Shown here: piece after piece, positions 52,022 to 60,052 of the stretch
Layout: each line of letters starts with the position of its first letter
Position numbering within the stretch: position 1 is the stretch's first letter
Origin: Deltaproteobacteria bacterium
GTDB taxonomy: Bacteria > Myxococcota_A > Polyangia > Polyangiales > JADJMO01
Reading direction: 5' to 3'
Length of the DNA: 64,000 bases
Assembly: GCA_025363655.1 (NCBI GenBank)
Contig: JANYDK010000145.1
Location: 62,001 to 126,000 of the forward strand
Notes under the pieces: model-generated
Told to the model about the DNA's origin: nothing
Database searches by the model: none
The model's input: the letters and a program-made list of their open reading frames with translations, nothing else
Position numbers and translations under genes: made by a program

Positions 52022-52891
52022 GTGCACCGCGTCTTTCGTCGTTGCAGCACACGCTTTCCCGCGAGCCTTCCCGCGAGCCTTCCCGCGAGCCTTCTCGTCC
52101 TCGTCGCGATGGCCGGTGACGTTCACGCCGATCTCGACGAGCGCCGCTTCCATGTCGATGCCGGTACCGATGGCACGTTGATTGGTCTCGGCGTCGCGCT
52201 CGGGGGATTCCAAGAGTTGCTCATTTCGACGGGCGAGCTGAAGCCGCAAAAGCCTGGCGCTCCTGATAGGTTGCTGGGCCTCGATCGCGCGGCTCTCGGT
52301 CATCCCTTCGATCCGTTCGCGTCGACGTATTCCAACGTCGGGCTCCTCCTCGCGATCGGCTACGCTGGCGTCGAGCCGGTGGTGGAAGGCGCACGTACGA
52401 CGCGGCGTTCGGGCGTCACCGACGGGACGCTCTACGCCGAGAGCCTGGCGCTGACGTGGGCGCTCACCGATCTCGTGAAGCTCGCGGTGCGAAGGCCGAG
52501 GCCGCGCACGTATGGCGCGAGCGAAGGCGACGAGGGCACCACCGACGATAGTTTGTCCTTTTTTTCAGGCCACGCCGCGATCACGTCGACCGTCGGCGCG
52601 ACCGCCACCTACCTCGCGTTCTCGCGCGGGACGACGCCGCGATCGTGGGCGACCCTCGGCGGCGCGGTCGTCCTCGACTTCGTGGTCGGCTATGGCCGCG
52701 TGCGAGCCGGCGCGCACTTTCCCACCGACGTCTTCGCGGGGACGTTGATCGGCGCCGCGATCGGCATCCTCGTCCCGCACCTCCACCGAACGACGAACGT
52801 CGACGCCACGTCGTCGACGTCCTCCAGCGTCAGCATCTCGTCACCCGGAGCACCGCTCAGCCCGACGATGACGTTTGGGTCTACTTTTTAG
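52022..52891 (+). CDS. PAP2-family phosphatase, exported, paralogue of the divergent gene
   Basis: A 289-aa protein. The signal peptide contains three perfect Pro-Ala-Ser-Leu repeats before the hydrophobic core (LLVLVAMAG). PAP2 motifs: KLAVRRPRPRTY, SFFSGHAA and GYGRVRAGAHFPTDVFAG, with all catalytic residues. Membrane-like segments surround them. The last 35 residues are Ser/Thr/Pro-rich and end in FGSTF. It is divergent from the first PAP2 gene with 50 bp between starts. Both end in Phe, which suggests a shared outer-membrane or envelope location. Confidence 0.85.
   Translation: MHRVFRRCSTRFPASLPASLPASLLVLVAMAGDVHADLDERRFHVDAGTDGTLIGLGVALGGFQELLISTGELKPQKPGAPDRLLGLDRAALGHPFDPFASTYSNVGLLLAIGYAGVEPVVEGARTTRRSGVTDGTLYAESLALTWALTDLVKLAVRRPRPRTYGASEGDEGTTDDSLSFFSGHAAITSTVGATATYLAFSRGTTPRSWATLGGAVVLDFVVGYGRVRAGAHFPTDVFAGTLIGAAIGILVPHLHRTTNVDATSSTSSSVSISSPGAPLSPTMTFGSTF
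52058..52093 (+). repeat. In-frame 12-nt tandem repeat, 3 perfect units
   Basis: CCCGCGAGCCTT three times, encoding Pro-Ala-Ser-Leu three times in the signal peptide of the PAP2 protein. Confidence 0.92.
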
Positions 52892-52919: not shown

Positions 52920-55652
52920 TCAAGGACAGTGCAGCGTGCCTTCGATGCGTCCTTCCGCAGCGCGGTAGATGACGCCTGATTCGATCGTCTCGCCGGTGGC
53001 GGCGCCTGCCCCGTCGACGTTGGCGCAGAGGAGCTCGAAGTCGGAGGGACCTTCGCCCGTCACGGGGTCGAGATCGAGCGCGCTCTGGGTGCCGACGAGA
53101 TCGAGGCCCCCGCCGCCGCCGAGGCGCGTGATGGCGTCGAACACCGGCGTCGGGCCGACCTCGACGAGCGGACCGGGCGGCATCAGGCGCGCGAACGAAC
53201 GCGAGAGCGCGAGCCCGTCGACGGGGCGATCGCCGAGCGCGTAGACCGCATAGGCGAGGAGATAGAACGCGTCGTAGCTGGGGCCGGGGTTGATCATCCG
53301 GCTCACGCTCTTGGCGTTGGCCGCGTTGTATCGAATGACGAAGCGCGCGTTGGTCGTCGAGCTCGAGAGAGACTGCACGGCGAAGAGTCGGCGACGGCGA
53401 TCGGCGTCGCGACCGAGGAACTCGCGGAAGAGCTCGAGATCGTCGCTCGAGACGACGTAGGTCGGGCGTTGCGCGCCCTTGGGCCATCGAGCTTCGACCT
53501 GCTCGACGATCGGCACCGTCGCGGCCGGTCCGCCGACGAGGACGAGGAGGGAAGGGCGCGCCAAAGTCGCCGCGTCGACCACCACCTTCAGATCGGCCGG
53601 CGTAGGAACGGGCGGAAATTCAAGCTCCGTCCACGCATCGCCGTTGTCGAGCGCGGGCTTGCCGTTGAGCACCAGGCTGCGGGAGAGCTTGTCTGCGAAC
53701 GACACGCCCGACGCACTCTTTCCATGCGCGACGGCGACTCGAAGTTGCCGAGGTGGCTGAAGTGGCTCGGCTGAGGTGACGCGCGGACCGAGCACGTCGT
53801 GGAGGATCGCCGCCGTCGCCACCGCGGTGAGATCGAGGCTGAAGGTGGTGCGCCAGACGAGCCGTGGCAGATCGGCCGGCTGCGGAATGCGCGTCACGAG
53901 CGGGCTCGACGACAGCGACGCGACGGTGAGCACGTGGCGCTGCACGAGATAGGAGCCAGCGACGTCGACCACCTCTTGCCCCGACGCGAAGCCGAGGATC
54001 GCCGGCACGCCCACGTCTTCGACGAGATGCTTGGCGACCCGCATCGGATCGTCGGTGTCGTCGCAGGAGACGAGGGCGAGACGTCTCACGTGTCGCGCTG
54101 CATCGGGCCCGACCAGCGCGCTGGTCGCCTTGGCGAGCTCGCTTCGTGCCAGCTCGGTGCCCTGCACGTTCATGTTCCCATAGAGCGCGCCGTTGTCGCC
54201 TTGGGTGGGAAAGAGCGCGCCGATCCAGACGGTGTCGTCGGCCAGGAGATCTCCCGGCTCGTGGTGGACGGTGCACTCGGCGCTCGCCACCGGTGCGCAG
54301 CTTCCATCGGCTCGACACGTGTACGCGGCCCCGCCGTGCTCTTTCGAGCACACGCTCGGGCGACAGGAGGGCCCCGCGCCGCTCGGGCTCGTCGACGCGC
54401 TGCCGGAAATCCCAGCGTCGCTCGTGCTCTTGCGCGCCGCGCGCACCATCGGAATCGCGACCACGACGCCCGCGGTGACGAGCGCCCCGAGCGCTGCGAG
54501 CCCGGCGTAGAGGCGGACGCGCGATGGATGTGCGGCGCCGGTGAGCGCCGCCATCAGCGCCTCCATCGATGCATAGCGACGTGATGGTTCTGCTTCGAGC
54601 CCGATCAAGAGCGCGCGGCGGAGGCGCGGGGGGACGTCGCTCTTCGGCGGCGCCGGGCGAATCGTCATCGCTCGTTTGCGCGCATGGAGCTCTCGGGCGC
54701 TGGCTGCACGAAAGGGACGTTCGCCGTAGAGCCCTTCGTAGAGCGCGACGCAGAAGCAGTAGACGTCGGAGCGAGCGTCGGCCGGCGTGCCCATGACGTT
54801 CTCGGGCGCCATGTACGCCGGCGTGCCCACGAGAAGCCCGGTCTTGGTCAGCTGCGTCTCTTCGGGGATCGCGTCCGAGTCGCCCGAGTCGCTCGAGTCG
54901 TGCGCGTCGGTCCCGTCTTTCGAATCGAGGTCGGCGCCGACGCGCGCGAGGCCGAAGTCGGTCACCCGGACCCTGCCGTCGGTGCCGACGAGCACGTTGT
55001 CGGGCTTGAAATCACGGTGAATGATCCCTGCCGCGTGGGCGCGCGCGAGCCCGCGACCGGCGCGGAGGAAGATGTCGAGCACCTCGCGCCATTCGCGACG
55101 AGTCGCCACCAGCCACTCACGGAGCGTGCCTCCCTCGACCAGCTCCATCGCGATGAAGAGCTGATCGCCGTGCATTCCGACGTCGAAGACGGAGATGACC
55201 TCGGGGTGAGAGAGGCGAGCCATCGACTTCGCCTCGCGCAGGAGCCGCGCTTCGAGATCGGGCCCGCCGCGCCCGTGACGAACGAGCTTGAGGGCGACGC
55301 GTCGATCGAGTGACGGATCACGCGCGGCATAGACGCTCCCCATGCCGCCGACGCCGAGGAGCTCGAGGACTTCGTAGCGTCCGACCCGTGCGCCGGCACG
55401 GAGCGGTTGCGGACCCGACGACGGGACGCCTGGTGAGAGGGGGGTCGGCGAGTTGGAAGGCGTCGGCTTCGCGGTCGCGGCTGGCGACTGCTGCGCCGGT
55501 GGCTCGACCGCACGGGCGACGGCGGCGACGAGTTGCGGGCAGGTGATGCACGACGAGAGATGCCGCTCGACGACGGCCATCCGCGACGCGCCGAGCCGCC
55601 CCTCGACCAGCTCGGCGATCTCGTCGTCGGTGAGGCAGGCGTCGTCCGTCAC
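52920..55652 (-). CDS. Receptor-type serine/threonine kinase: zinc-finger, kinase, TM, periplasmic binding domain
   Basis: A 910-aa protein. N-terminus (residues 1-50): anti-sigma-like zinc finger with His31, Cys35 and Cys38. Kinase (about 92-370): LGVGGMGSVYAA, VALKL, HRD 212-214, DFG 232-234, MAPEN; all catalytic residues kept. A membrane helix follows (about 381-400). The periplasmic part has a Cys-rich hinge (about 428-458) and a type 1 binding-protein fold like branched-chain amino-acid receptors (IGALFPTQGDNGALYGNM, DDTDDPMRVAKHLVEDVG, PSYDAFYLLAYAVYAL). It should sense a small ligand and phosphorylate a target inside. Divergent from the sigma factor gene. Confidence 0.92.
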   Translation of the reverse strand: MTDDACLTDDEIAELVEGRLGASRMAVVERHLSSCITCPQLVAAVARAVEPPAQQSPAATAKPTPSNSPTPLSPGVPSSGPQPLRAGARVGRYEVLELLGVGGMGSVYAARDPSLDRRVALKLVRHGRGGPDLEARLLREAKSMARLSHPEVISVFDVGMHGDQLFIAMELVEGGTLREWLVATRREWREVLDIFLRAGRGLARAHAAGIIHRDFKPDNVLVGTDGRVRVTDFGLARVGADLDSKDGTDAHDSSDSGDSDAIPEETQLTKTGLLVGTPAYMAPENVMGTPADARSDVYCFCVALYEGLYGERPFRAASARELHARKRAMTIRPAPPKSDVPPRLRRALLIGLEAEPSRRYASMEALMAALTGAAHPSRVRLYAGLAALGALVTAGVVVAIPMVRAARKSTSDAGISGSASTSPSGAGPSCRPSVCSKEHGGAAYTCRADGSCAPVASAECTVHHEPGDLLADDTVWIGALFPTQGDNGALYGNMNVQGTELARSELAKATSALVGPDAARHVRRLALVSCDDTDDPMRVAKHLVEDVGVPAILGFASGQEVVDVAGSYLVQRHVLTVASLSSSPLVTRIPQPADLPRLVWRTTFSLDLTAVATAAILHDVLGPRVTSAEPLQPPRQLRVAVAHGKSASGVSFADKLSRSLVLNGKPALDNGDAWTELEFPPVPTPADLKVVVDAATLARPSLLVLVGGPAATVPIVEQVEARWPKGAQRPTYVVSSDDLELFREFLGRDADRRRRLFAVQSLSSSTTNARFVIRYNAANAKSVSRMINPGPSYDAFYLLAYAVYALGDRPVDGLALSRSFARLMPPGPLVEVGPTPVFDAITRLGGGGGLDLVGTQSALDLDPVTGEGPSDFELLCANVDGAGAATGETIESGVIYRAAEGRIEGTLHCP
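54876..54902 (-). repeat. In-frame 9-nt repeat, 3 units, in the kinase gene
   Basis: CGAGTCGCC-like units (plus-strand reading) encode the Asp-Ser-Ser-Asp-Ser-Gly segment in the activation region after DFG of the receptor kinase. Confidence 0.75.
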
Positions 55653-55731
55653 GTCGGACGCGATGGTGGCCCAGCGACGGCGGCAGCGCCAGACCCTGAC
55701 AAGCGCGCTCGATGAGCCTCCGAGGCGATGC

Positions 55732-55737
55732 TAGACT
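55732..55737 (+). promoter_or_regulatory. Putative -10 element TAGACT
   Basis: TAGACT, 11-nt spacer containing GAGAAAG, ATG 55749 of the sigma factor. It lies after the other candidate start, ATG 55728, and so favours 55749. Confidence 0.4.
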
Positions 55738-55748
55738 CCGAGAAAGCG

Positions 55749-56564
55749 ATGGAGGAGACGCGCACGGGGCAGCAGCTCGACGAGCTCCATCGGCTCGGTC
55801 AGGCAGCGTGGCCGAACCTGACGATCGCCGCCGACATGTTCGCGGCGCACATCGGTAAAGTCGCCCGCGACGGTGAGCTGCCGGCGCCCGAGTACGCGTC
55901 CGACGTCTTCCTTGCCTGCGCCTGCGCGCTCGAGGTGCGCGGCGCGGCCGAGGCCTTCGACGCCAGTTTCGCCGCCGATCTCGGGCGCACCATCGCTCGC
56001 ATCGACTCCGATCAAGCCTTCGTCGCCGATGCCTTGCAGACGCTTCGCGAACGGCTGCTGCTCCGTCGCGACAGCGAGATGCCGCGCATCGGCGAGTACA
56101 TGGGGCGCTCGTCGCTGCGCACCTGGCTGACCACCACGGCGAGCCGCACGGCGCTGAATCTACGGCGAAACAAGGACGAACAGTCGCACGATCAGGTGCG
56201 CTCGGACGCCCTCGTGGAGGCCATTCCTCCCGAGCTGATGATGCTCCGCGCGCGATACAAGCCCGAGCTCGAGGCGGCCATTCGCGAAGCCGTGCTCGGC
56301 CTCGAGCAACGCGAACGCGCGCTTCTTCGGCTCAACATCGCCGACAGCCTCAGCATCGACGCCCTCGCCAAAATGTACGGCGTCGGCCGCTCGACCGCCG
56401 CGAGGTGGCTCGCCGCGGCACGCGATTCTCTGGCCGAGCGCACGCGCGCCTGTTTCTGCGCTCGCGCGAAGATCTCCCTCGACGAGTACGACAGCATCGC
56501 CGACGCGCTGCGCAGCGATCTCGAGGTCAGCCTCGCGCAGCAACTCGCGTCGCAAGTCGCCTGA
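55749..56564 (+). CDS. RNA polymerase sigma-70 family factor, Myxococcales type
   Basis: A 271-aa protein. The N-terminal half is helical, with ADLGRTIARIDSDQAFVADALQTLRERLL; region 2-like contacts are IGEYMGRSSLRTWLTTTASRTALNLRR, and region 4-like DNA-binding is ALLRLNIADSLSIDALAKMYGVGRSTAARWLAAARDSL. This arrangement matches the sigma-70 subfamily restricted to Myxococcales (gmx1 type) that often sits beside Ser/Thr kinase genes. The divergent receptor kinase is therefore a likely regulator. ATG 55728 would add seven residues but precedes the TAGACT element. Confidence 0.85.
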   Translation: MEETRTGQQLDELHRLGQAAWPNLTIAADMFAAHIGKVARDGELPAPEYASDVFLACACALEVRGAAEAFDASFAADLGRTIARIDSDQAFVADALQTLRERLLLRRDSEMPRIGEYMGRSSLRTWLTTTASRTALNLRRNKDEQSHDQVRSDALVEAIPPELMMLRARYKPELEAAIREAVLGLEQRERALLRLNIADSLSIDALAKMYGVGRSTAARWLAAARDSLAERTRACFCARAKISLDEYDSIADALRSDLEVSLAQQLASQVA

Positions 56565-57148: not shown

Positions 57149-57168
57149 TCACGCGCAAGACCGACATC

Positions 57169-58245
57169 GTGCACGCAATCGAGCACTTTCCGCCGCTTCC
57201 CCGCGGCCTCAAGGGGCGGACGACCGAGCTGACGACGCTCGCGCGCACGCTCGAGGCCGGCGCGAGACGTCTGGCCCTGGTGGGCGGCGGAGGGAGTGGG
57301 AAGTCGATGCTCGCGGCCGCGCTCGGTCATCGGGTGGCGGCGAAGTTCGGTCGGCGTCTGCATTGGTTTCGCATCGGTGCGTGGGACGCCTGGACGCTCT
57401 TCGAGATGCTCGCGATACGCTTCGGCACCCCGCGTGCGCGCGACGGTCGGCTCGACAATCTCAGGGCATTTCTCGTCGGCGAAGGCCCACGCTTGGTGGT
57501 GCTCGACAACCATGAAGACGACGCTGCGACCGCGCGCGTGCTCGACGAGCTCGCGGACACACCCACCACCTTCGTCATCACGGCGCGCCGATGCTTGCTC
57601 GGTGGCGTCCTCGTCTATCCGGTGACGGCGCCGCTGGTCACGCTCGGACGTTCGGCATTTCCCCGCGTCGCCTCCCTCACGCGGGTCCTTCGTTGGAACG
57701 CGCTCGCGCTCGACATCGCCGACGGACTCATCGGCGCAAAGGCGCTGACCCTCCCGGAATTGACACGATTTCTCGGTGATCGCGGCGTCGGTCGGGTCCG
57801 CGTGGTGGCGCACGAAGACGACGTCCCCGAAGTGGCTGCGCTCGTCGATTGGTCTTGGCAACACCTCGGCGCGGCGAGTCGGCGCGTGCTCGGGGTCCTC
57901 GGACACGTCGAGGGTGACCACGTCGACGTTCGCTCGCTCGCCCACCTCGCGCGGGTGCGTGACATCGAGGCCGCCCTCGCGCCCCTCGAGACGTTCCGAC
58001 TCGTGCAGCAGCCTCTCCGGGGTCGATTCACGCTCCATGCGGTGGTCCGTCACGCCATCCGACAGCGCACCACGCCCGAGCCAGATCGCTGGTTTTCGTA
58101 CTATCTGCGTCTCCTCGAGCGAGAGCCCGGGCGGCTCGCCCTCGAGCAGACGCACCTCTTCGCGGCGATGGATCACTGCAATCGCGCCAACGATCTCGAC
58201 GGCATGCTCCGCATCGAGCGGCTGCTCGCTGCGCAAGGGCTGTGA
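57169..58245 (+). CDS. Short STAND/NB-ARC-like NTPase
   Basis: A 358-aa protein: Walker A LVGGGGSGKS, LHWFRIGAWDAWTLFEMLAIRF, LVVLDNHEDD (Walker B), PTTFVITARR, then a winged-helix-like region (LVDWSWQHLGAASRRVLGVLGH) and the start of a helical region (GRLALEQTHLFAAMDHCNRAND) that ends abruptly. Relatives such as AfsR-type ATPases go on for several hundred residues of TPRs; none follow here. It may be a natural short form or a truncation. GTG 57169 has no strong ribosome site; a start further upstream in the same frame overlaps the lipoprotein gene. Confidence 0.7.
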   Translation: MHAIEHFPPLPRGLKGRTTELTTLARTLEAGARRLALVGGGGSGKSMLAAALGHRVAAKFGRRLHWFRIGAWDAWTLFEMLAIRFGTPRARDGRLDNLRAFLVGEGPRLVVLDNHEDDAATARVLDELADTPTTFVITARRCLLGGVLVYPVTAPLVTLGRSAFPRVASLTRVLRWNALALDIADGLIGAKALTLPELTRFLGDRGVGRVRVVAHEDDVPEVAALVDWSWQHLGAASRRVLGVLGHVEGDHVDVRSLAHLARVRDIEAALAPLETFRLVQQPLRGRFTLHAVVRHAIRQRTTPEPDRWFSYYLRLLEREPGRLALEQTHLFAAMDHCNRANDLDGMLRIERLLAAQGL

Positions 58246-58283: not shown

Positions 58284-58949
58284 ATGAAGCTTTCAGCGGT
58301 ACGGAGCGAAGATTCACGAGTGTCCCGAGCCCATCGAACCCCCGTGCCCGCTCCCGTCACCGAGGGCGAGCTCCCGCGCGTGGACGACGACGTTCGTCTC
58401 CTCGCGCGGGTCGCCGAATCGGATCTCGACGCGCTCGGCATTCTCTACGACCGCCACGAGGCTGCCGTTCGTCGCTTGATTCGACGACTCGGCGTCTCCG
58501 CGGGCGACGTCGACGATCTCGTGCAATCGACGTTTCTCGACGTCTTGAAGTCTGCGAACAAGTTCGTACCGACCAAGAGCGCTCGCACCTGGGTGCTGGG
58601 CGTCTCCGTGATGATCGTCCGTCGGCATCGACGCTCGGCGCGTCGCTGGTTCGAGAACCTCACCGGCGGCATCTTCGAGCGTCGGCGCGCGCCGCCGTCG
58701 ACGCCGGTCGAGATGTTCGAGCAGCGCGAAGATCATCGACGCTTCGAGCAAGCGCTCGCCGACCTGTCGCCGAAGCGTCGCGAGGTGTTCGTCCTCGTGG
58801 TGATGGAGGAGATGTCGGGCGAGGCGGTGGCGACGCTCCTCGGCATTCCGGTGGCCACCGTCTGGACGCGTCTCCATCACGCCCGCAAGGCCCTGCGCGC
58901 TTCCCTTGTCGAGCCTGGTGAGCCTGGTGAGCCCAAGGAGGTCCCGTGA
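58284..58949 (+). CDS. ECF RNA polymerase sigma factor
   Basis: A 221-aa sigma factor. Region 2: ARVAESDLDALGILYDRHEAAVRRLIRR, then DVDDLVQSTFLDVLKS (the region 2.2 DAEDLVQ-type motif). Region 4: LSPKRREVFVLVVMEEMSGEAVATLLGIPVATVWTRLHHARKAL. It lacks long additional domains. It is followed with a 4-nt overlap (GTGA) by the FecR-like anti-sigma gene, so it is the sigma partner of that pair. The C-terminal tail has a short Glu-Pro-Gly repeat. Confidence 0.92.
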   Translation: MKLSAVRSEDSRVSRAHRTPVPAPVTEGELPRVDDDVRLLARVAESDLDALGILYDRHEAAVRRLIRRLGVSAGDVDDLVQSTFLDVLKSANKFVPTKSARTWVLGVSVMIVRRHRRSARRWFENLTGGIFERRRAPPSTPVEMFEQREDHRRFEQALADLSPKRREVFVLVVMEEMSGEAVATLLGIPVATVWTRLHHARKALRASLVEPGEPGEPKEVP

Positions 58950-60052
58950 GCGCACCGAAGTGTGCACGAACGTGGGAAGCCGAGGCGGTCGAGGACGGGC
59001 GTCTTCCCGGAGAGAGTCGTACGGCCTACGCGCGGCACGCCGAGCGATGCGCCGAGTGCCGTGCCGAAATCACCGATCTGCGGCGCATTCGTGAGCTCGC
59101 GCGCGCGAGCTCGCCCCTGAACGTCAGCGAGCTCGAGCGACGAAGGCAGCGCGCGATCCTGCTTCGTCGTGCGAACGAAGAACGCCTGCAGGCACCCTCG
59201 CGACGGCGCCCGGTGATTTGGGCGCTGGCCGCGTTTTCGGCCTGCATCGTCGCCTGCGTCCTCGTCGTCGCCGCGCGTCGCGTTCAGAATCGAGCGGGTG
59301 CGTCGCCCAGCGCGGAAGCCTCCGTCTCCTACGACGTGGCCGACGTGCGAGGCGCGTCGTGGACCGTGAGCCGGCCAGGTGCGTTCACCATCATCGGCCT
59401 CGCTGATGGCCGCGCCGCCTTTCACGTCGAGCACCTTTCGAGCACGCAGCGCTTCGTCGTCGCGCTCCCCGACGGCGAGCTCGAAGTGCGTGGCACGCGA
59501 TTCGTCATCGGCGTCGACGCACGTTCGCTGCACACGACCGACGTCGCGGTCACCGAGGGCATCGTCGTCCTCCGCCTGACCGGCGCGCCGGAGTTGATCT
59601 TGCGCGCAGGGGATCGCTGGGCGCCACCGCTCGCGGCCGCTCCTTCGGTCACCGGCCCCGCCGCGGTCGTCGAGGTCACGAGTACGCCAACCCCAAAGGT
59701 CGTAGCGCTTCCGAAGGCGACAGCGGTCTCCACGAGCATGGCTTCCACGAGCGCGTCCCCGAGCCCGAGCGCGAAGCCGTCCAGCTCGGCCGAGGCGGCC
59801 GGCTTCGGCGTCGCGATGAGCGCATTCCAGGCAGGAAAATATGCCGAATCCGACGTTCTCTTCGCGCGCTTCCTCAGCGAGTCGCCCGGGGACGCACGCT
59901 GCGAGGACGCGCTCTTCCTCCGCGCCGTCGCCCACGCACGGATGGGCGATCGCGTCGGGGCCAAGGCGCTCATCCATGCCTATCTCGCCGCCTACCCCGA
60001 GGGGTTACGTCGGGAAGAGGCACGGCGCTTCGCCGAGACGCTCGAGAACTGA
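58946..60052 (+). CDS. Anti-sigma factor: zinc-finger, TM, FecR-like domain, TPR-like C-terminus
   Basis: A 368-aa membrane protein. Cytoplasmic N-terminus with a zinc-finger (AxHAERCAECRAE), one membrane helix (VIWALAAFSACIVACVLVVAA, about residues 90-110), a FecR-like domain (YDVADVRGASWTVSRPG, VVALPDGELEVRGTRFVIGV, TDVAVTEGIVVLRL), a Ser/Thr/Pro linker and two TPR-like helices (MSAFQAGKYAESDVLFARFL, DALFLRAVAHARMGDRVGAKAL). It probably keeps the ECF factor inactive until an envelope signal arrives. It overlaps the sigma gene by 4 nt. The outer-membrane protein gene follows at 1-2 nt. Confidence 0.9.
   Translation: MSAPKCARTWEAEAVEDGRLPGESRTAYARHAERCAECRAEITDLRRIRELARASSPLNVSELERRRQRAILLRRANEERLQAPSRRRPVIWALAAFSACIVACVLVVAARRVQNRAGASPSAEASVSYDVADVRGASWTVSRPGAFTIIGLADGRAAFHVEHLSSTQRFVVALPDGELEVRGTRFVIGVDARSLHTTDVAVTEGIVVLRLTGAPELILRAGDRWAPPLAAAPSVTGPAAVVEVTSTPTPKVVALPKATAVSTSMASTSASPSPSAKPSSSAEAAGFGVAMSAFQAGKYAESDVLFARFLSESPGDARCEDALFLRAVAHARMGDRVGAKALIHAYLAAYPEGLRREEARRFAETLEN

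Follow-up and report, generated by a model that had tools for sequence, protein, structure and literature searches.

Can one membrane protein be at once the receptor, the kinase and the anti-sigma factor of a transcriptional circuit? The question is raised by two genes that lie back to back in a 64,000-nt stretch (hereafter the window) of a Deltaproteobacteria bacterium genome, contig JANYDK010000145.1 of assembly GCA_025363655.1. On the minus strand, a gene with a GTG start (52920..55652) encodes, by gene call, Pfam and predicted structure, a 910-residue protein in which a zinc finger, a Ser/Thr kinase domain, a membrane helix and a binding-protein sensor follow one another. On the plus strand lies the gene for a 278-residue sigma factor of the Sig-70_gmx1 family (55728..56564), and the divergent intergenic region between both start codons measures 75 nt (55653..55727). 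A sequence-only reading had placed both genes at these positions and in this orientation, and had taken the larger protein for a receptor with a built-in anti-sigma that would hold and release the sigma factor, or phosphorylate it. Our analysis of the wider family shows that the pairing of gmx1 sigma factors with kinases is systematic in Myxococcota, well beyond chance, and that the finger follows the sigma factor and not the sensor.

The pairing of gmx1 sigma factors with finger-bearing kinases

The window sigma factor scores 188.4 bits (E 1.3e-55) against NCBIfam TIGR03001 (Sig-70_gmx1), for which the curated cut-off is 154.6, and at least one gmx1 match is found in 61 of 379 sampled Myxococcota genomes. 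We compared 121 gmx1 loci, consisting of the window and 120 further Myxococcota loci, for nearly all of which flanks of up to 4.5 kb were included on either side, and found a kinase domain no more than 1.2 kb from the sigma factor gene in 79 of them. This agrees with the expectations of the sequence-only reading that the two genes would share a conserved neighbourhood and that the sigma factor belongs to a sigma-70-family subfamily often found next to kinases. Kinases no more than 700 nt away are divergent upstream in 56 cases and co-directional downstream in 16, and the 1.5-kb flanks of 17 other sigma-70 matches in the window's own genome contain no kinase. A paralogous pair (L057) keeps both partners in another order, convergent and about 0.7 kb apart, and therefore the link between sigma factor and kinase survives rearrangement. 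The catalytic Lys, Asp, Asn and Asp are kept in all 79 sigma-adjacent kinases, which argues that their kinase activity is under selection.

A full CHCC finger is present in 69 of these 79 kinases and a variant finger in four (L095, L097, L119 and L174), and a finger occurs somewhere in the locus stretch at 93 of the 121 loci. The window's own genome, which encodes at least 152 kinases and exactly three gmx1 sigma factors above the TIGR03001 cut-off, gives three strong matches to the finger profile (E 4e-15 to 9e-13); all are kinases and each lies near one gmx1 sigma factor, two of them as immediate divergent neighbours and the third in convergent orientation at a distance of about 0.7 kb. The next matches in this genome are weaker and are mostly small or canonical-looking anti-sigma-like frames, one of them within the window. 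Across 106 genomes of the class, finger and sigma factor occur together in 45 and are both absent from 48; 11 genomes contain a finger alone and two a sigma factor alone (Fisher p 7e-17). The 47 genomes with a sigma factor contain 195 fingers and 195 sigma factors in all, and the two counts correlate with rho 0.92 (0.89 after genome size). The genomes compared share descent, the candidates considered in each were limited in number, and the profile derives from fingers adjacent to sigma factors, a source of bias in the counts. Among the best 60 finger matches, 39 lie no more than 4.5 kb from a listed gmx1 sigma factor.

The finger can also be seen apart from the other domains. At two loci (L161, 5205-6065, plus strand; L164, 2543-3403, minus strand) a divergent protein made of a finger and a membrane helix, with no kinase, faces the gmx1 sigma factor in the layout of ordinary membrane anti-sigmas; the C-terminal domain of the L161 protein matched no Pfam family. 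At a third (L082, 2420-4342, minus strand) the protein facing the sigma factor combines a finger with a pseudokinase (HGDIAS, SGF) and a STAND NTPase. Conversely, 11 other fused kinases carry the same sensor as the window protein, with their kinase end covered, and none has a finger or stands beside a gmx1 sigma factor; the only sigma-profile matches near them, at L201 and L202, score weakly (E 1e-13 to 1e-14) and lie several kilobases away. Because sensor-kinases without a gmx1 sigma factor lack the finger and kinase-less finger proteins face gmx1 sigma factors, the finger is the sigma-linked part of the receptor, and most likely an anti-sigma clamp.

Anatomy of the receptor and exchange of its sensor

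The finger occupies residues 4-50 (55503..55643, minus strand, as are all parts of this protein) with the ligand spacing C6-x24-H31-x3-C35-x2-C38. His31, Cys35 and Cys38 are the residues that the sequence-only reading had named; the fourth ligand, C6, had escaped it. Pfam zf-HC2 gives no signal on the whole 910-residue protein and E 0.003 on the isolated finger segment, and matches 54 of 61 homologous fingers (best E 2e-9). The four ligands are invariant in all 61 rows of our finger profile, A1, rows that were chosen for the C/H/C/C motif. Searched against the PDB, the profile finds the anti-sigma domains of RslA (3hug, E 3e-6) and DdvA (8rlz, E 3e-5), and also RsiW and ChrR. The Hx3Cx2C motif, completed by a Cys further upstream that serves as the fourth ligand, the homology to the solved domains of RslA and DdvA and the position of the gene next to that of an extracytoplasmic function (ECF)-type sigma factor are all features of class I anti-sigma domains (ASDI/ZAS).

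A proline-rich linker of 40 residues (51-90; 55383..55502) leads from the finger to the kinase; the corresponding linkers of homologs are rich in Ala, Pro and Gly and have a median length of 22 residues (range 2-71). The kinase domain spans residues 91-375 (54528..55382), matches Pfam Pkinase at residues 93-366 (E 1.5e-39) and has the catalytic lysine (VALK), HRDxKxxN and DFG of Hanks-type Ser/Thr kinases, so that the intact catalytic residues favour an active enzyme, as had been proposed. The single membrane helix that had also been proposed is predicted at residues 381-403 (54444..54512; hydropathy 2.35 over 19 residues).

The remainder of the protein, residues 426-910 (485 residues; 52923..54377), comprises a Cys-rich lead-in and the sensor. 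Pfam Peripla_BP_6 reaches 23.1 bits here (E 7e-5), under its cut-off of 31.7, and a single-sequence phmmer search of the sensor against the PDB returned nothing, the family profile being needed. In the PDB, a profile from 21 sensor homologs picks out LIVBP-type proteins (3ipc, E 7e-9), and the best Foldseek hit of the AlphaFold2 model (pLDDT 92, pTM 0.91) is 3hut (E 8e-17, target TM 0.77), with GABA-B, further solute-binding proteins and the ligand domains of mGluR next in order. The sensor is therefore predicted to be a Venus flytrap, the type-1 periplasmic binding-protein fold of LIVBP. The charges flanking the membrane helix do not settle the topology. We place the C-terminal part outside because it carries invariant cysteines and because several of the stand-alone sensor homologs (L209-L213) read as lipoproteins, with a signal-like stretch leading to a lipobox-like Cys. 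The periplasmic type 1 binding-protein fold of the sequence-only reading is thus borne out by predicted structure and family profile, and its receptor interpretation is supported by the same fold and by these exported-looking homologs; the amino acid that it offered as a ligand is a guess from the protein family.

The sensor is modular. Among 64 sigma-adjacent kinases scanned, 39 contain TPR_12, single cases contain phosphonate-binding, FGE, lectin, PEGA or STAND domains, and the flytrap is found only in the window protein and its L057 paralog. In a quick kinase-domain tree, these two kinases (pair support 98) fall among the gmx1-linked kinases, and the sensor-kinases are placed elsewhere. These relationships are most simply read as a gmx1-type finger-kinase having gained a Venus-flytrap sensor to give the window protein. 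A third flytrap-kinase of the same genome (L202 in C51, 6465-9239, minus strand), one of the 11 fused sensor-kinases above, has neither a finger nor an adjacent gmx1 sigma factor. At L212, L213 and L215, stand-alone lipoprotein-like sensors adjoin kinases, the genes lying about 1 kb apart, and the domains of these kinases cluster with those of the fused sensor-kinases L199 and L200 (support 100), which suggests a split and a fused form of the same receptor.

Possible modes of control

What the finger does depends in part on what the sigma factor can do by itself. In the model of the window sigma factor (pLDDT 93), the usual sigma-2 and sigma-4 are preceded by extra N-terminal helices and followed by a conserved C-terminal helical hairpin, with the additions confidently predicted at residues 2-67 and 251-275. 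In the 121-member alignment, region 2.2 is acidic, with Asp or Glu at position 101 in all 121 members and at position 100 in 96. EcfP-type sigma factors have lost the acidic residues of this region and depend on phosphorylation there (PMC8999054). The signature of such phosphorylation-activated ECF43 sigma factors, a lost DAED motif with a Ser/Thr phosphosite in its place, is absent, residues 98-101 of the window sigma factor being F-V-A-D, and EcfP-type activation was set aside as the default mechanism since region 2.2 of gmx1 sigma factors stays acidic. Because the acidic residues are kept, the alignment implies that a gmx1 sigma factor should engage RNA polymerase without help and require an inhibitor. 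Conserved Ser/Thr residues do occur elsewhere in the family (T223, S256, S263 and S268), and the three serines of the C-terminal hairpin are strongly conserved.

Sequestration is, on this comparison, the most economical role for the finger, which matches solved anti-sigma domains and accompanies a sigma family that looks polymerase-competent unaided. We therefore favour a one-protein switch as the best of the explanations considered, and hold it to be about as likely as not. The N-terminal finger of the membrane-bound kinase would bind the gmx1 sigma factor and keep it inactive at the membrane; a periplasmic ligand would bind the Venus-flytrap domain and activate the cytoplasmic kinase; the kinase would act on its own finger or linker, or on the sigma factor, and so loosen the grip; and the freed sigma factor would join RNA polymerase. 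The finger goes with the sigma factor as a built-in anti-sigma would, and to this extent the sequence-only interpretation holds up; its branch in which the kinase phosphorylates the sigma factor is weakened in the known EcfP form, given the acidic region 2.2 and the lack of Ser/Thr there in the window sigma factor.

Several observations weigh against the switch. Within the locus stretch, an intact finger was not seen at 28 of the 121 gmx1 loci, a few of them clipped by contig ends. Three adjacent kinases (L079, L098 and L121) have the same helical segment with the zinc-ligand cysteines lost, and three others (L110, L146 and L153) have no recognised finger, L110 having a finger-kinase next in line. 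The bias of the profile counts belongs here too, as does A100 of the window sigma factor, where most homologs have Asp or Glu. In class I anti-sigma domains, helix 1 binds sigma-4 and helix 4 binds sigma-2 (PMC7406223); judged by sequence, the 910-residue protein shows no sign of this fourth helix and has the proline-rich linker instead. As helix 4 seems to be missing, the finger may form half of a clamp that the kinase domain completes, or it may not inhibit at all and only dock the sigma factor for phosphorylation.

This last option leads to a rather unlikely alternative, in which the finger recruits the sigma factor and the kinase, as a positive regulator, phosphorylates and activates it in the manner of PknT and EcfP. 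The absent sigma-2-binding helix, the catalytic residues kept throughout the adjacent kinases, the conserved Ser/Thr residues outside region 2.2 and the established kinase activation of ECF43 sigma factors (PMC8999054) all speak for such a role, whereas the acidic pair kept across the family, the window sigma factor without Ser/Thr at the EcfP phosphosite, the two loci with a finger and no kinase and the one with a pseudokinase speak against it.

The kinase-less finger-membrane proteins, which occupy the same place as the finger-kinases, speak for mixed control, where the finger sequesters the sigma factor, the kinase works mainly on other targets, and release comes from redox at the zinc site, proteolysis or a ligand-driven conformation. 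The zinc sites of ZAS proteins can indeed sense redox, as is known for this family (PMC8999054). We nevertheless think this reading improbable, as the catalytic residues intact in 79 of 79 adjacent kinases suggest that kinase activity belongs to the circuit.

Correlations of sigma distances with finger distances are higher in observed pairs (0.247) than in within-genome re-pairings (0.130; 0 of 2000), as are those with kinase-domain distances (0.341 against 0.284; 7 of 2000). This result speaks for the switch, with the reservation that such a correlation is expected of linked genes in the absence of physical contact, and that linkage alone could give it. The two genes could accordingly be neighbours by co-inheritance of a successful two-gene block, with the finger serving, for example, in dimerisation. 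We consider this the least probable explanation, and a very unlikely one, since finger-kinases accompany gmx1 sigma factors in many genomes and in different gene orders, and since sensors are exchanged while the finger stays, the same sensor without the sigma factor having no finger.

Taking the switch as the working model, we tentatively extend it beyond the window, while holding this generalisation to be somewhat doubtful. The gmx1 sigma factors of Myxococcota may be under the control of many modular receptor kinases, a large class that unites sensor, kinase and anti-sigma in one polypeptide. The finger would hold the sigma factor, the kinase would release it, and sensors (TPR, Venus flytrap, lectin, STAND and others) would be freely exchanged; the window protein would be the Venus-flytrap version.

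Surroundings, significance and known systems

Near the receptor gene and convergent with it lies a gene for a PAP2 phosphatase-family membrane protein (52022-52891, plus strand). The sigma factor gene is followed on the same strand by a possible STAND-like ATPase (about 57150-58245; GGGGSGKS) without a Pfam match and, 1.7 kb downstream of the gmx1 sigma factor, by a second ECF sigma factor of 221 residues (Pfam Sigma70_r2 and r4_2) whose gene overlaps that of a 368-residue protein in which a Cys/His finger-like N-terminus is joined to a membrane helix and a FecR domain (together 58284-60052, plus strand); this is an ordinary sigma/anti-sigma pair. A plasmid comparison gave no match, peptide patterns found no close relative of either the sigma factor or the kinase protein in named genomes, and a dyad search for an autoregulatory motif upstream of the 121 gmx1 sigma factors returned GC-rich noise only.

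Each component has precedents by itself: ECF sigma factors linked to kinases, anti-sigma domains in fusions, and flytrap receptors. Our limited literature search found no description of all three in one protein, or of the finger as a general signature of gmx1-linked kinases; it found no paper that names TIGR03001, and a full-text search for the combination of zf-HC2, Pkinase and sigma factor found no paper with zf-HC2. Ser/Thr kinases are very numerous in myxobacteria, and for most of them no target is known; the finger marks those wired to a sigma factor together with their likely partner, so that a single bioinformatic feature supplies dozens of kinase-to-transcription circuits that can be tested. 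If the switch is real, receptor kinases and anti-sigma factors are joined in one protein with swappable sensors, which would be attractive for synthetic receptors.

Among known systems, the class I anti-sigmas RsrA, ChrR, RslA and RsiW (zf-HC2/ZAS) share with the window protein the C...Hx3Cx2C finger beside an ECF-like sigma factor, and often likewise carry a membrane helix and a sensor in fusion. The window finger, unlike theirs, shows no fourth helix; it continues through a proline-rich linker into a Ser/Thr kinase that looks active. RsbW and SpoIIAB also unite anti-sigma and kinase in one protein, as proposed here, but they are soluble, have a GHKL kinase fold and phosphorylate an anti-anti-sigma. 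The ECF43 pairs EcfP-PknT and EcfK-PknS resemble the locus in that an ECF-like sigma factor gene adjoins a Ser/Thr kinase gene. They differ in that the acidic DAED motif is lost from ECF43 sigma factors and phosphorylation activates them (PMC8999054), whereas gmx1 sigma factors keep acidic residues and their kinases bear an anti-sigma-like finger. A precedent for release by Ser/Thr phosphorylation is found in Mycobacterium tuberculosis, where PknB phosphorylates the anti-sigma RshA and thereby frees SigH (PMC13147305, PMC8999054), with two separate proteins there and one here.

On the sensor side, LIVBP-type binding proteins and class C GPCRs resemble the window protein in the predicted ligand-binding fold outside the membrane helix. 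The Venus kinase receptors of invertebrates likewise couple a Venus flytrap to a kinase. Compared with such Venus-flytrap receptors, the window protein is a bacterial Ser/Thr kinase with reversed domain order, and its output would pass through a sigma factor.

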